From Succiniclasticum ruminis DSM 9236 (GTDB lineage Bacteria > Bacillota > Negativicutes > Acidaminococcales > Acidaminococcaceae), in NCBI RefSeq assembly GCF_900112895.1, contig NZ_FONL01000004.1, positions 62,001 through 126,000 of the forward strand: a stretch of DNA of 64,000 bases, written 5' to 3'. Shown piece after piece: positions 4,763-51,648 of this stretch. The notes beneath the pieces were generated by a model that did not search any database, had not been told where the DNA came from, and saw only the letters and a list, made by a program, of their open reading frames with translations. The stretch's first letter is position 1. Each line of letters begins with the position of its first letter. Position numbers and translations under genes: made by a program.

Positions 4763-5191
4763 ATGTTCCTGGGTGAGTACCGGCATTCTTTAGACGACAA
4801 AGGTCGTCTCTTCATTCCTGCCAAATTACGGGATGTTTTGGGAAAGCGCTTTTTCATCAGCAAAGGATTTGATCATTGCCTGATGATATATGACGAAGAA
4901 CAGTGGAAACTGTTTTCGGACAAGTTGAACGCGTTGTCCATGGGGCAGAAAAAGAACCGGGATATTAAACGATTTTTCTTCTCCGGCGCGGATGAATTTT
5001 CCTGCGATAAGCAGGGGCGCGTGCTGCTGAGTGCCAGCCTGCGGGAACACGCAGGTATCAATAAGGATACCGTAATAGTCGGTGTAGGCGACAAAGCGGA
5101 AATCTGGTCTGCAGAGAGGTGGCAGGAGCGAAATGCAGCTGCAGAACAGATGATAGAGGAAGGTCTTGACGACCTGAATCTGGACATTTGA
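4763..5191 (+). CDS. mraZ: Transcriptional regulator MraZ
   Basis: A 142-residue protein with two SpoVT-AbrB-like halves. The first contains [19 protein letters not shown] and the second [20 protein letters not shown]; the DxxGR motif in each is the DNA-binding signature. MraZ forms a ring and represses the division and cell wall cluster. The ATG at 4763 follows an AAAGGGGTGAAG stretch that serves as both ribosome-binding site and last operator repeat. An in-frame start at 4625 would put the promoter inside the gene and was rejected. rsmH follows after 10 bases. Confidence 0.96.
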
Positions 5192-5201
5192 TGAGGCGTT
5201 T

Positions 5202-6128
5202 ATGGAATTTGCTCATGTAAGTGTTCTTCTGAAAGAATGTATAGACTGGCTGGTTACAGATCCGGACGGCATTTATGTGGACTGTACGCTGGGCGGGGCC
5301 GGTCATTCTTCTGAAATTGTTGCACGACTGTCGGATAAAGGACGGCTGATTGGTATCGATCAGGATGATGATGCGCTGGCTGCGGCGAAAGAACGGCTAA
5401 AAGACGCACAGTGCATAGTAGAGATCGTAAGGTCCAACTTTAAAGAGTTGAAAGAAGTTTTGCATAAACTGGACGTAGAAAAGGTTACAGGCATCCTCTT
5501 TGATTTGGGAGTATCTTCCTATCAATTGGATACGCCGGAACGGGGCTTTTCTTACATGCATGAAGGTCCGCTGGATATGCGGATGAACCAGGAAAGCACA
5601 CTGACCGCGGATACCATCGTAAATATGTACAGCGAAGCAGAACTCGCCGGACTGATCTGGCGGTATGGGGAAGAACGGTGGGCGAAACGGATCGCGCAGT
5701 TTATTGTAGCGGAGCGGCAGAAAAAGCCGTTGCATACTACCGGAGAACTGGTAGAAGTTATAAAAAAAGCGATTCCCAAAGGAGCCCGTAAAGACGGCCC
5801 CCATCCGGCAAAGAGAACCTTTCAGGCTCTGCGGATTGAAGTGAATGATGAACTGAACATCCTTGATCAGGTAGTGGAGGATGCGGTAAATGCGCTACGG
5901 CCTGGCGGACGAATCGGAGTCATCACGTTCCAGTCATTGGAAGACAGGATTGTAAAGCAGAAACTGGCCCAGCTGGCAAGAGGATGTATCTGTCCGCCTC
6001 ATATGCCCTGTGTGTGTGGAAGGAAACCGCTGATTAGCAAACCGGGCAGCCTGGTCCCCGGGGATAAGGAAGTAGCAATGAACCCAAGGGCAAGAAGCGC
6101 AAGGCTGCGTTTTGCGGAAAAGTTATAA
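5202..6128 (+). CDS. rsmH: 16S rRNA (cytosine-1402 N4)-methyltransferase RsmH
   Basis: The 308-residue product methylates C1402 in the decoding centre of 16S rRNA. It starts with [13 protein letters not shown], has the methyltransferase loop [12 protein letters not shown], and the family's [14 protein letters not shown] and [12 protein letters not shown] motifs. The C-terminal [11 protein letters not shown] is also typical. It follows mraZ in the usual dcw order. Confidence 0.97.
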
Positions 6129-43580: not shown

Positions 43581-43692
43581 CGAAAAATATATAAATGAAA
43601 AATGCATGGCGTCTGCCATGAGAATAAATAAAAATTATTACTACGATAATAATAATTACAGCAATACAGATTTTTTAGCAGGAGGAAACAAC

Positions 43693-45411
43693 ATGCTGAC
43701 ACCATTGGACTTAAATGGAAAAACATTTTCCAAAGGTTTTCGCGGTTATGACACAGACGAAGTCAATCAGTTTTTTTCTCAGATCTCCAGAGATTACGAA
43801 CGTTTATATCAGGATAACGTGGAGTTAAAGGATTCCGTAGAGCGTGTCAGTGCCAAGCTGGAGTATTACCAGCGGATGGAGAGCACCATGCAAAGCACGC
43901 TGGTGGTGGCTCAGGAAACGGCGGATGAGGTTAAGAAAAGCAGTTTGCAAAAAGCGCAGGTACTGACCAGGGAAACCGAGCTGGCCTGCAATAAACAGAA
44001 AGAGGCTGCAGTTTCGTTCTGTAACAAACTTCGGGCTGATACGGAAGCGGAGATTACCCGTATGAAATCCGAAGCGGAAGCCTATGCGGAGAAAGTCCGG
44101 AAAATGGCTGACGAGTATGCATCTAAAACCCGGGGAGAAGCGGACGATTACGGCAAGTCAACCCGTACAGATGCGGATTCCTATGCATTGGGTCTGCGCA
44201 GCAAAACAGATTCTTCTACCAGCAAATTGAGGGAAGAAGCTCAGTCCTTCGTGGATAAGATGAAGAATCTGGCGGAAATTGAAGTGGCCAGGATGAAGGT
44301 GGAAGCGGAAGACAACTGCAAGTCCCAGCTGGCTGACAGTCGGGAACAGGCCCGCACTCTGACGGCAGAAGCCTCAGCCCATGCCAATCAGGTCATGGCC
44401 GATGCGAACCACCAATCCCAGAACATTGTAGCGGAAGCAACCCAGAAGGCGCATGAGATGATTGCCAACGCCCAGAAGCAGTCCCAGGATATGATGGCGG
44501 AAGCGCGGCAGAAATCCCAGGACATGGTGGCAGAAGCAAACCAAAAATCCCAGAATATGATTACCGAAGCGACACAGAGATCCCAGCAGATGATTACAGA
44601 AGCGACTGAAAGGAGCCGTTCTTTGGTGCAGGAAGCTACGGAGCGCAGCCAGAAGATGGTATTTGTTGCTGAGACCAAAGCGGCTGCGGCCATGGACACC
44701 TACAATACCATGGTGAGCAAAGCAAACTCCCAGAGCAAGCAGTTGAAGAGCCTGCTGCAGTCCCAATTGTCCTTATATGATAATTTTGAAGCAGAATATG
44801 CTGTTGATCAACTGGTGCAGCCCAAACTGCAGGCGGTCAGGAAAGCGGAACCGGTTTTGGAAACGCAAGCAGAGCCGGTGCATGCGCAAGTAGTGGCGGA
44901 AGCTGAGAATAAAGCGGTAACGGGGGAGGCAGAAAAAGACGTTGCAACAGCATCGCCAGCCGGAGAAACTGTTGTGGAAACACCGGAGGTTAAGTCTGTG
45001 ACGGAACCTGGGAAGGAGGAACCGGATAAAGTAAATTTTCCTGAGGCAGCCGAAGCCAACGCTGCGGCTGCTGTGGAAGAAAAAGCTGCATTTACGGATA
45101 AAGACAGTATAACCGCTGATGATAACCCGAACCCTGCTGAAGAGGATAAGCCTTCTGTATCCAAAATCAACGGATACGGCGGTATGCGTAAGCCTCTCTT
45201 TTCAAGGTTTAATCCCCGTGGGCCGATGATCTTCAACCGAAACGGTTTTCCCCGCAAAAATGCGGACCTGCGTGTAGCCCTGAGTGAACTGCAGAAATCG
45301 GCAGAACCTAGGCCACAGAGTGTTGAAGCTAAGACGGAGCCTGCCGTTTATACTGTAAAACCTGAATCCGGAAATACTGCCCCCGGGCCGGAAGGGAACA
45401 AGGAATCCTGA
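43693..45411 (+). CDS. divIVA: DivIVA-family polar protein, unusually long
   Basis: The N-terminal 60 residues are the DivIVA lipid-binding domain: LTPLDLNGKTFSKGFRGYD then EVNQFFSQISRDYERL. Then comes a very long coiled coil with an 11-residue periodicity (nine hendecads at residues 229-327), an Ala/Glu/Val-rich disordered part, and a basic C-terminal block (KINGYGGMRKPLFSRFNPRG). At 572 residues it is two to three times the usual length. DivIVA binds curved membrane and recruits wall and division proteins. ATG 43693 has a strong AGGAGGAAAC site; the frame is open back to 43606, but that leader lies upstream of the site. Confidence 0.93.
   Translation: MLTPLDLNGKTFSKGFRGYDTDEVNQFFSQISRDYERLYQDNVELKDSVERVSAKLEYYQRMESTMQSTLVVAQETADEVKKSSLQKAQVLTRETELACNKQKEAAVSFCNKLRADTEAEITRMKSEAEAYAEKVRKMADEYASKTRGEADDYGKSTRTDADSYALGLRSKTDSSTSKLREEAQSFVDKMKNLAEIEVARMKVEAEDNCKSQLADSREQARTLTAEASAHANQVMADANHQSQNIVAEATQKAHEMIANAQKQSQDMMAEARQKSQDMVAEANQKSQNMITEATQRSQQMITEATERSRSLVQEATERSQKMVFVAETKAAAAMDTYNTMVSKANSQSKQLKSLLQSQLSLYDNFEAEYAVDQLVQPKLQAVRKAEPVLETQAEPVHAQVVAEAENKAVTGEAEKDVATASPAGETVVETPEVKSVTEPGKEEPDKVNFPEAAEANAAAAVEEKAAFTDKDSITADDNPNPAEEDKPSVSKINGYGGMRKPLFSRFNPRGPMIFNRNGFPRKNADLRVALSELQKSAEPRPQSVEAKTEPAVYTVKPESGNTAPGPEGNKES
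44377..44673 (+). repeat. Nine 33-bp hendecad repeats in divIVA
   Basis: Nine consecutive 11-codon units share the pattern xxSQxMxxEAx (for example KQSQDMMAEAR, QKSQDMVAEAN, QKSQNMITEAT). An 11-residue period favours a right-handed or straight coiled coil. The middle units are the most similar at DNA level, suggesting recent duplication. Confidence 0.85.
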
Positions 45412-49588: not shown

Positions 49589-49748
49589 TGCGATGCAGTC
49601 TCCTTTGCTAAGCCGGTTATGCTTTTTGTTTTTACAAATATGATTATAGCACAAAATTGACAAAAAGGACGCAAAGTAATAATATTAAAAAGCATGAGAG
49701 AATCAGTCCGTTAAATCTGATAGTATTACATAACAGGAGACGAAGCCG

Positions 49749-50258
49749 ATGAAAGAACAGGAAAAAACGCAGAGTAAAACCGGGTTTCCGCCTTCAAACT
49801 TGCCGCGGGATCCTGAAACAGGATATTTTCTGGATGTTCCCGCACGCATCCGGGAAATCTATAAACATAACTGCTTTATGTCGGATTTTTTTCATATCAG
49901 TATTGATGAAATCTACTGCGGAGGCGCGCAGGTAAGTTTGCATATTGAACATGACAAGCATGCCAACCACCGTAATGTAACCCATGGCGGCGTACTGACG
50001 GCGCTGGCAGATTCCGTGTTGGGAGTGACCGGGGCATCTGTTGGGGAAGCCGTGGTGACGGCAAGTTTTGCCATGGATTTCATCAGCAACGTAAGCATGG
50101 ACGGAACGGTGCGTATGATCAGCAACATCAAACATCACGGTCGGAGTACCATGGTCATTATCGGCGAGATGTATGACAACAAAAACCGCCTGCTGGCCAC
50201 GATGATGGCATCCATGGTAAATGTAGATAAGATTGAAGGTATACCCAGCAAGTGGTAA
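49749..50258 (+). CDS. PaaI-like hotdog thioesterase
   Basis: A 169-residue single hotdog domain. NVTHGGVLTALADSVLG carries the HGG motif and Asp typical of PaaI-type acyl-CoA thioesterases, followed by FAMDFISNVSMDGTVRM. The N-terminal 40 residues are a family-variable extension. The substrate acyl group is unknown. CAGGAGACG precedes the ATG by 8 bases. The stop lies 14 bases before the next start, making it the first gene of a coupled trio. Confidence 0.88.
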   Translation: MKEQEKTQSKTGFPPSNLPRDPETGYFLDVPARIREIYKHNCFMSDFFHISIDEIYCGGAQVSLHIEHDKHANHRNVTHGGVLTALADSVLGVTGASVGEAVVTASFAMDFISNVSMDGTVRMISNIKHHGRSTMVIIGEMYDNKNRLLATMMASMVNVDKIEGIPSKW

Positions 50259-50272
50259 GAATGGAGGCTCAC

Positions 50273-51136
50273 ATGAAAACCAATCTGATTTTAATCAACA
50301 ACGATATTGTGGACGCAGAAGAAATCAATGTGCATCCCTTTAACCGGGGACACCAGTTCGGGGACGGCGTGTATGAAATTGTTCCCGTGTATAACGGGAA
50401 AGCCCTTCATGCGGAAGCGCATATGGAGAATCTGTTTAATGCCATAGTGCAGATCAGGATTCCCGGTTTCTACATGGTGGATGAAATGGTTGAATTTACG
50501 AACCGGTTAATTGAAGCAGCAGAGGTTACGGACGGATTGCTTTATACCCAGGTGACACGGGGTATAGGACCGTACGAGCTGGACTTTCCGGGACAGTGCG
50601 AACCGGAACTGATTATGCAGGCAGTTCCGCTGGACAGGGTGGCGTTGGCAGAAATGCGGCAGACAGGTGTGAATTTGCTTACGGTGCCTGACGAGCGTGC
50701 CGTCAAATGCGACCTGAACACATTGTACCGCCTGCCGGAAATCCTGGCGAGAAACAAGGCCCGGGTAGGGAAATTTTACGATGCATTATTTGTAAAAGAT
50801 GAAAAGATAACAGAAGCTACGGAGTCGACCTTTATGGTTGTGAAAGATGAAATGCTGTGGACGTATCCCATGAAGCTGGGCAGCATCCATGACAATGGGA
50901 TGCGCCGTCTGATCAAAGAGAAGTTGGCCCCGGCTCTGGATATGCAGGTGATTGAGAAAGCCTTTACCAAAGACTTTGCCCTGAATGCGGATGAAGCACT
51001 CCTGTGTGGCTGTCGCTGTGAAATCATGCCGGTAGCAAAAATCGACCGCCGTGTGGTCGGTGATGGTAAACCCGGTAAATTTACCCTGCAGCTGCAGGGC
51101 GTTTTTGAAGACTATATCCGGGAACAGACAAAATGA
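50273..51136 (+). CDS. Class IV aminotransferase-fold protein lacking the catalytic Lys
   Basis: A 287-residue protein that aligns along its length with D-amino acid aminotransferase: RGHQFGDGVYEIVPVYNGK, LLYTQVTRGIGP, ITEATESTFMVVKDEMLWTYP and EALLCGCRCEIMPVAKID. The PLP lysine of DAAT (in DIKSLN) is replaced by Asn149 (CDLNTLYRL), the PLP-phosphate Arg50 (HIDRL) by Asn53 (HMENL), and the SSSN phosphate/dimer loop reads TEST. The Tyr31 equivalent, Y34, and the Glu of the TE motif remain. It is therefore unlikely to be a normal transaminase; a binding or PLP-independent role is possible. ATG 50273 follows GGAGG by 5 bases. Overlaps the next gene (ATGA). Confidence 0.85.
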   Translation: MKTNLILINNDIVDAEEINVHPFNRGHQFGDGVYEIVPVYNGKALHAEAHMENLFNAIVQIRIPGFYMVDEMVEFTNRLIEAAEVTDGLLYTQVTRGIGPYELDFPGQCEPELIMQAVPLDRVALAEMRQTGVNLLTVPDERAVKCDLNTLYRLPEILARNKARVGKFYDALFVKDEKITEATESTFMVVKDEMLWTYPMKLGSIHDNGMRRLIKEKLAPALDMQVIEKAFTKDFALNADEALLCGCRCEIMPVAKIDRRVVGDGKPGKFTLQLQGVFEDYIREQTK

Positions 51137-51648
51137 AACCGGCCCTGGATAACCGCGCCCTGACGCGGGCAGCGCTGTGTCTGGCAGTTGCGGCTGTCGC
51201 GCAGGCTCTGCGGGTTCTTTTACCGCTGCCTCCCATTGCTTCCATGCTGCTGATTGGTACGGTGGTGAATCTCTGCCTTTGTTTTGCTGTGTGGGGGAGC
51301 GATATACTGTATGCAGGTATCATCTGTTTTCTTCTTCCGCTTTTTGCATTCCTTCAGGGGCATTTGTCCTTGTTGCCGATGGTGGCAGTTGTATTTTTGG
51401 GTAATCTGGTTTTCTGTCTGGTTGTGAAGCAGCAGAAACAGTGGAAACATTATGTGTTTGCGCCGTTGCTGAAAGCGGTGACTCTGTGGTCTTGCACGGG
51501 CATCGTCTGCAATCTGTTCCATGTGCCCCGGCAGGTAAAGAATCTGTTGCAGATATCCATGGGTATTCCCCAGTGGACGACGGCGCTTCTCGGTGTGATT
51601 GCGGCTGTGCTTTTGTGGAAACGGCTGCATCAAAACGGGATTGTTTGA
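51133..51648 (+). CDS. Six-helix membrane protein, ECF S-component-like
   Basis: A 171-residue membrane protein with six predicted helices and short loops. The first helix (RAALCLAVAAVAQAL) holds an AxxxA pattern like the one through which ECF substrate-binding S components contact the T subunit, and size and topology fit that class. No energising EcfA/EcfT genes are here, as is normal for group II ECF systems. The ligand is unknown. The start codon overlaps the stop of the pseudo-aminotransferase gene, so the two are co-translated. Confidence that it is a real membrane protein is high; ECF assignment is tentative. Confidence 0.6.
   Translation: MKPALDNRALTRAALCLAVAAVAQALRVLLPLPPIASMLLIGTVVNLCLCFAVWGSDILYAGIICFLLPLFAFLQGHLSLLPMVAVVFLGNLVFCLVVKQQKQWKHYVFAPLLKAVTLWSCTGIVCNLFHVPRQVKNLLQISMGIPQWTTALLGVIAAVLLWKRLHQNGIV

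Follow-up and report, generated by a model that had tools for sequence, protein, structure and literature searches.

Can a protein that keeps the fold of a D-amino acid aminotransferase (DAAT) and lacks the lysine that binds PLP still be a transaminase and, if not, what has it become? The question is raised by a gene in a 64,000-nucleotide stretch of the genome of Succiniclasticum ruminis DSM 9236 (the window, from whose first letter all positions are counted). We refer to its product and the orthologues as N-type proteins, and to lysine-bearing relatives as K-type.

50273..51136, + strand: lysine-less DAAT-fold protein (N-type), 287 aa, identified from the ORF, Pfam and NCBIfam matches, alignment and predicted structure

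The open reading frame begins with an ATG at 50273, with GGAGG 5 nt upstream, and ends with a stop codon at 51134-51136. The 287-residue product matches the Pfam profile PF01063 (Aminotran_4) from end to end (positions 1-223 of 223; E 6e-24, 85.6 bits against a gathering cut-off of 28.5), which by homology places it among the class IV aminotransferases. The best NCBIfam model is that of D-amino acid transaminase, TIGR01121, with a score of 198.7 bits that falls short of the equivalog cut-off of 277.45 bits. An AF2 model computed from a 48-row alignment (mean pLDDT 91.6, pTM 0.88) has 1DAA as its top Foldseek match (TM 0.92, rmsd 1.2, 34% identity), and the predicted protein has the architecture of fold type IV.

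Residue numbers refer to the Bacillus sp. YM-1 DAAT (1DAA) unless given for the window protein. Alignment with this reference located the following substitutions, with counts over the 44 N-type orthologues found in the family.

50717..50719, + strand: Asn149, AAC codon, at the PLP lysine site (DAAT Lys145); Asn in 44/44 genomes
50429..50431, + strand: Asn53, AAT codon, at the phosphate-binding Arg50 site; Asn in 35, another non-Arg residue in 7, not covered in 2 (n = 44)
50573..50581, + strand: Tyr101-Glu102-Leu103, replacing the carboxylate trap Arg98/His100; site 98 is Y in 32, F in 8 and G in 2, site 100 is L in 42; 2/44 not covered
50729..50731, + strand: Arg153, a new pocket arginine at the DAAT Leu149 site; Arg in 43/44
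50813..50830, + strand: Glu181, the kept N1 glutamate (44/44), and T183-E184-S185-T186, replacing SSSN; site 184 is E in 39 and D in 5
51008..51019, + strand: Gly246-Cys247-Arg248-Cys249 (family consensus GPRC), replacing STTS of the phosphate/P-pocket turn; G in 42, P in 38 and R in 39 of 44

The first-pass annotation had placed Asn149 opposite Lys145 (AAC at 50717-50719) and Asn53 opposite Arg50 (AAT at 50429-50431), and had read TEST in place of the SSSN loop; the alignment bears out all three, with T183-E184-S185-T186 lying opposite S179-S180-S181-N182. It had also raised the possibility that asparagine is conserved at both sites. This holds for the lysine site; opposite Arg50 the residue may be N, K, Y, Q, S, A or E, and what is common there is the absence of arginine (42/42 covered N-types). 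Close homologues that keep Lys and Arg, which would have pointed to a mutation or a sequencing error, did not appear among the orthologues. Further changes lie outside the sites first noted, namely Arg98 to Tyr, His100 to Leu, Leu149 to Arg, Leu201 to His, Thr241 to Cys and Thr242 to Arg in the window protein, and Gly203 to Asn in 39/44 N-types, as does the downstream membrane gene described below; within the TEST loop, Ser180 has become Glu. Arg98 and His100 occur in 0/42 covered N-types, the Thr241 site is Pro in 38/44 and keeps Thr in 1/44, and the Tyr31 site is F in 30, Y in 10 and C in 2. Among the retained residues are Glu177 and Arg138 (each 44/44) and the phosphate contact Thr205 (34/44).

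The internal aldimine is described as a prerequisite for aminotransferase activity in PMC9309667. Without Lys145 it would not form at its usual place and, as the carboxylate trap and the phosphate-binding arginine are gone too, amino acid transamination becomes very unlikely. Judged by sequence, the N-type would thus fall outside the DAATs on four counts (PLP lysine, carboxylate trap, phosphate grip and NCBIfam equivalog cut-off), and its function is very probably something other than transamination.

In order to see how far this substitution pattern extends, we searched 59 genomes of the own family, Acidaminococcaceae, for PF01063 and obtained matches in 49, at 50 places. The N-type orthologue is present in 44/59 genomes, one copy each and spread over 14 genera, and all 44 were read. 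The remaining class IV genes occupy six places, one being an extra gene in G078 and five lying in genus g13, from which the N-type gene is absent. Inspection by eye of five of these six sequences showed lysine in 5/5, in the motif expected for the lysine site; the sixth, L065, was left out since it duplicates L064 throughout the region compared. The 10/59 genomes with no PF01063 match include four from g13, and several of the rest are incomplete. In the genome that we take to be the window's own (G000, 98% complete), the window protein is the single PF01063 match and thus the only class IV aminotransferase found, which rules out, for this genome, a paralogue beside an intact DAAT.

Outside the family, lysine is the rule. 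When 380 genomes of the class were scanned with a nucleotide pattern for the Asn motif, 31 matched, all from the own family (reversed control: 2 genomes); the count of 0/321 genomes outside the family falls short of proof, since the pattern misses 13/44 known cases. In 119 genomes of the phylum no second N-type-like score was found at E up to 1e-60 (495 bits for the own protein, 232 for the next), and the 12 next-best homologues all retain Lys145, Arg50, Arg98 and His100. Among 19 homologues fetched from outside the family, Arg50 is present in 19/19 and Lys145 in 18/19, so that over all outside-family homologues read the lysine site is Lys in 30/31 and Arg in one. The exception is a DAAT-like gene in another Negativicutes family (L044, positions 4846-5697, minus strand, genome G059) with Arg at the lysine site (CDIRTTN) and Cys at the His100 site, Arg50 and Arg98 being kept; here the lysine may have been lost independently.

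A tree of 49 proteins, drawn from the midpoint, places 35 N-types on one side of a branch with a support of 100/100 and a stem of 0.73 changes per site. Two K-types of the same taxonomic order (L050 and L051) stand beside the N-types, and L042, also of this order, groups with other K-types. Among nine N-type genes of the genus, dN/dS ranges from 0.031 to 0.084 in the 34 usable of 36 pairs (two are saturated, and many dS values exceed 1), a sign of strong purifying selection on the gene.

The gene order adds to this picture. At the K-type loci L042, L043, L044, L046, L050 and L053, the DAAT gene is accompanied by one for pyruvate kinase, for an acyltransferase or for a stand-alone PK_C domain (pyruvate kinase and acyltransferase are named from reading the sequence; PK_C is a Pfam match in L044 and L099). 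The same order is found around the N-type gene of G026 (L099), the only one of four N-type neighbourhoods read gene by gene to have it. The window differs from the K-type order, with ileS, a thioesterase and recJ as neighbours.

49749..50258, + strand: hotdog (4HBT/PaaI-like) thioesterase just upstream of the N-type gene; in 9/29 neighbourhoods of N-type genes (8 from this genus)
49657..49685, + strand: promoter-like site TTGACA-17-TAATAT before the thioesterase, a consensus match only (10 found in the window, 5.6 expected)

The g13 loci L121 and L123 carry pyruvate kinase, acyltransferase and the membrane gene introduced below (mem171) with no aminotransferase gene between, a natural deletion in which the membrane gene is kept. 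Together with the K-type order at L099, these loci suggest as the simplest history that the lysine was lost once and in place, that the gene pair moved later and that g13 dropped the gene; the gene order supports descent in place, for one N-type genome only. We consider it probable that the N-type is a vertical descendant of a Negativicutes DAAT that lost Schiff-base chemistry, most simply once and ahead of the spread of the clade, and that it was retained in a new role.

To define what became of the active site, we turned to the published contacts of fold type IV enzymes. PMC8401098 (section 2.6) gives Glu as the contact to PLP N1 and Arg, Ile, Thr and Thr as contacts to the phosphate, and lines the bsDAAT O-pocket with Y31, R98, H100, L149 and S180 and the P-pocket with V33, K35, S240 and T242; there and in PMC10003956 the DAAT carboxylate trap consists of Tyr31, Arg98* and His100*. 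As the phosphate grip we took Arg50, Ile204, Thr205 and Thr241, the bsDAAT numbering of the Halhy contacts. Halhy Tyr147, which contacts the PLP hydroxyl, sits on the same helix as Arg153, and we infer that it is equivalent to DAAT Leu149. In the N-types, the O-pocket has lost the carboxylate trap and has gained Arg153 (43/44) and Glu/Asp184 (44/44); the P-pocket has mostly Pro at the Lys35 site and has mostly gained Arg248. The new pocket set comprises Asn149, Arg153, Glu/Asp184, Leu103 and Tyr/Phe101 and, in most members, His206, Asn208 and Arg248.

The re-lined pocket is conserved. Over 15 pocket positions, drawn from a single paper once the first alignment was known, the mean entropy is 0.587 bits in the N-types against a protein average of 1.051, as low as in 0.9% of 10,000 random draws; in the K-type relatives the values are 0.639 and 1.255 bits (0.1% of draws). 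Six of 273 columns are fixed differently between N- and K-types, and four of the six belong to the 15 pocket positions (Fisher p 8e-5; 1e-3 without the lysine column). Such conservation would not be expected of a dead site left to drift. Drift is seen at the Arg50, Asn182 and Thr205 positions, which fits a weakened phosphate site, and His206 and Arg248 are not invariant; together with the variation at Arg50, this indicates that part of the re-lining is drifting.

Immediately downstream of the N-type gene lies a gene for a small membrane protein.

51133..51648, + strand: mem171, a 171-aa membrane protein with an ECF S-component fold by predicted structure; its start overlaps the N-type stop (ATGA)

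No Pfam match was obtained for mem171. Its model has six helices (pLDDT 85), and invariant sites include Q24, R27, N91, K114, Q147 and T150. Among 50 listed Foldseek matches, all ten with a probability above 0.5 are ECF S components, with weak E-values (best 0.078). In VIA-align, where helical models can reach Z 13-14 through common arrangement, ranks 1-17 are ECF transporter or S-component chains (Z 15.1 to 9.8, 8-16% identity) with RibU (5kbw) at the top, rank 18 is a cobalt ECF protein (Z 9.0) and other proteins follow from rank 19 (Z 7.9). The model thus predicts the six-helix fold shared by the S components RibU, ThiT, PanT and FolT, from which mem171 differs in its low identity and lack of a Pfam match. 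In the own genome three PF02361 matches exceed the cut-off, one of them interrupted by an internal stop, so that EcfT-type proteins, as expected alongside an S component, are encoded there.

Linkage between the two genes is tight and has exceptions. The mem171 gene directly follows the N-type gene in 38/44 genomes; in the remaining six it was not detected in five and lies on another contig in G075. All g13 genomes (9/9) carry mem171 without the N-type gene, so that, given five of 44 N-types with no mem171 detected, neither strictly needs the other. Outside the family, in several Negativicutes, mem171 lies near a class IV gene at 5/19 loci: at L050 it starts 7 nt after the DAAT gene, and at L043, L044, L046 and L053 the distance is 0.4-2 kb; the pairing therefore seems older than the lysine loss. 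At L043 and L046, a further small protein of 110-125 aa is encoded directly before mem171.

A conserved and re-charged cleft points to a new small-molecule partner which, given how tightly the gene is coupled to that of an S-component-like protein, may be taken up from outside. We consider it probable that the N-type forms no internal aldimine and is no transaminase, and that the cleft at the old cofactor site has a different small molecule as its ligand, or as the substrate of a lysine-free reaction, by way of the Arg153/Glu184/Asn149/Glu181 cluster. The protein would act with mem171, most simply by binding or processing what the transporter brings in. The suggestion in the first-pass annotation of a pseudo-enzyme with a new role stands in so far as PLP transaminase chemistry appears lost, with an asparagine fixed across the clade, purifying selection and a pocket conserved with other residues. 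That the protein is catalytically dead does not follow from this, and the newly fixed charged residues would make a lysine-independent reaction possible.

As the N1 glutamate is invariant, PLP or PMP might still be bound, noncovalently, with Glu181 on N1 and Arg153 near the O3' side, and the protein might catalyse a lysine-free reaction. Such chemistry has precedents: the sugar dehydratase ColD has His in place of Lys, and an engineered DAAT K145N reportedly retains partial reactions. The glutamate is present in 44/44 N-types and an arginine occupies DAAT position 149 in 43/44, and PMC8401098 describes how enzymes of fold IV contact N1 and the hydroxyl; Thr205, kept in 34/44, also speaks against a complete loss of the phosphate grip. 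The other phosphate contacts are nevertheless damaged (Arg50 gone in 42/42, T241 to P in 38/44, G203 to N in 39/44) and the trap for the amino acid carboxylate is lost as well, so we regard this explanation as unlikely.

A narrower version of the small-molecule hypothesis, which we would call quite unlikely as it stands, has the cofactor site turned into a substrate site for a vitamin-type ligand, pyridine-like and unphosphorylated (a B6 vitamer or look-alike), that is bound or modified after delivery by the ECF S-component. The idea follows from the retained N1 glutamate, the arginine gained on the helix of the BCAT-type hydroxyl contact and the loss of the lysine and of most of the phosphate cup. 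A match for PdxS (PF01680) is present in 13/59 family genomes and absent from the own genome and, judged from the PdxS route alone, many family members may need outside vitamin B6. Its presence in 12/44 N-type genomes and 1/15 others indicates that the gene is not tied to missing B6 synthesis, which argues against the B6-specific version; a link of the N-type gene to B6 auxotrophy is thereby rejected as far as the PdxS route goes.

Instead of binding a ligand, the fold and dimer might be kept as a scaffold for contacts with other proteins, such as the S-component-like protein, around a former active site without function. Drift at the Arg50, Asn182 and Thr205 positions and the coupling to a membrane protein gene would suit such a role, which is made decidedly improbable by a pocket group more conserved than the average column and furnished with new fixed charged residues.

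It is very improbable that another lysine has taken over the Schiff base. Work on DAAT Lys145 mutants has brought up Lys267 as a candidate; in the window protein its column holds Gln273, and it is variable across N-types. Across the 35 aligned N-types the invariant lysines are three, K178, K191 and K256, opposite DAAT 174, 187 and 250, positions that are not among the active-site residues named in the parts of PMC8401098 at hand, and K191 is invariant in 20 outgroup rows too. An alternative PLP-binding lysine, which the first-pass annotation had named as a way in which its reading could fail, thus gains no support from the sequences. Finally, a recent loss-of-function mutation, a decaying gene, chance or a sequencing error has a negligible probability, with nothing found in its favour, being ruled out by an Asn common to 44/44 orthologues in 14 genera and by a dN/dS of 0.03-0.08.

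In comparison with known systems, DAAT (TIGR01121, 1DAA) shares with the N-type the predicted fold, a full-length alignment, the N1 glutamate, His47, Arg93 and Arg138 and, in one genome, the gene order; the N-type differs in having no PLP lysine, no phosphate-binding Arg50 and no R98/H100 trap, and in its re-lined O- and P-pockets. A further likeness is offered by 7z79, an aminotransferase-like protein of Variovorax paradoxus, a member of another bacterial phylum, which has the class IV fold and 21-22% identity to the N-type (Foldseek) and whose N174K mutant is 9j32, apparently changed at the same site, judging from the PDB titles. By profile scores only, 7z79 exceeds the N174K form against the N-type profile (84.1 against 81.3 bits) and trails it by a small gap against the K-type profile (138.5 against 139.3 bits), as expected if N174 occupies the lysine column. 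Neither the Variovorax structures nor the N-type subfamily came up in a search of the open-licence literature. A lysine-less class IV protein hence has a probable precedent in 7z79/9j32, and what is new here is a clade-wide, DAAT-derived class distinguished by its pocket and its partner gene. Among PLP proteins of folds other than fold type IV, the Schiff-base lysine is lost or replaced in ColD (His), serine palmitoyltransferase subunit 1 and ornithine decarboxylase (ODC) antizyme inhibitor; ColD still uses the cofactor, and the other two have an active homologue as target or partner. Unlike those two, the N-type has no other class IV homologue that we could find in its own genome.

Most of a bacterial family has thus fixed the loss of a lysine held indispensable in PLP transaminases, in what is usually the family's only class IV gene, with the pocket rebuilt and conserved. 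For tracing how an enzyme scaffold is repurposed there is thus a natural series, made up of K-types of this taxonomic order, N-types from 14 genera and one genus that lacks the gene. The pyridine-like ligand reading, if true, would amount to a PLP-free function on fold type IV. Homology-based annotation may label N-types as D-amino acid aminotransferases and so lead to wrong pathway assignments. As regards other class IV enzymes, none of the IlvE or PabC type was detected in the own genome (98% complete), so that, by sequence, the corresponding steps must run otherwise or be encoded in the missing part. Elsewhere in the window, positions 43606-45411 encode a long DivIVA-like protein whose repetitive middle contains many short repeats around 'SQDMMAEA'.
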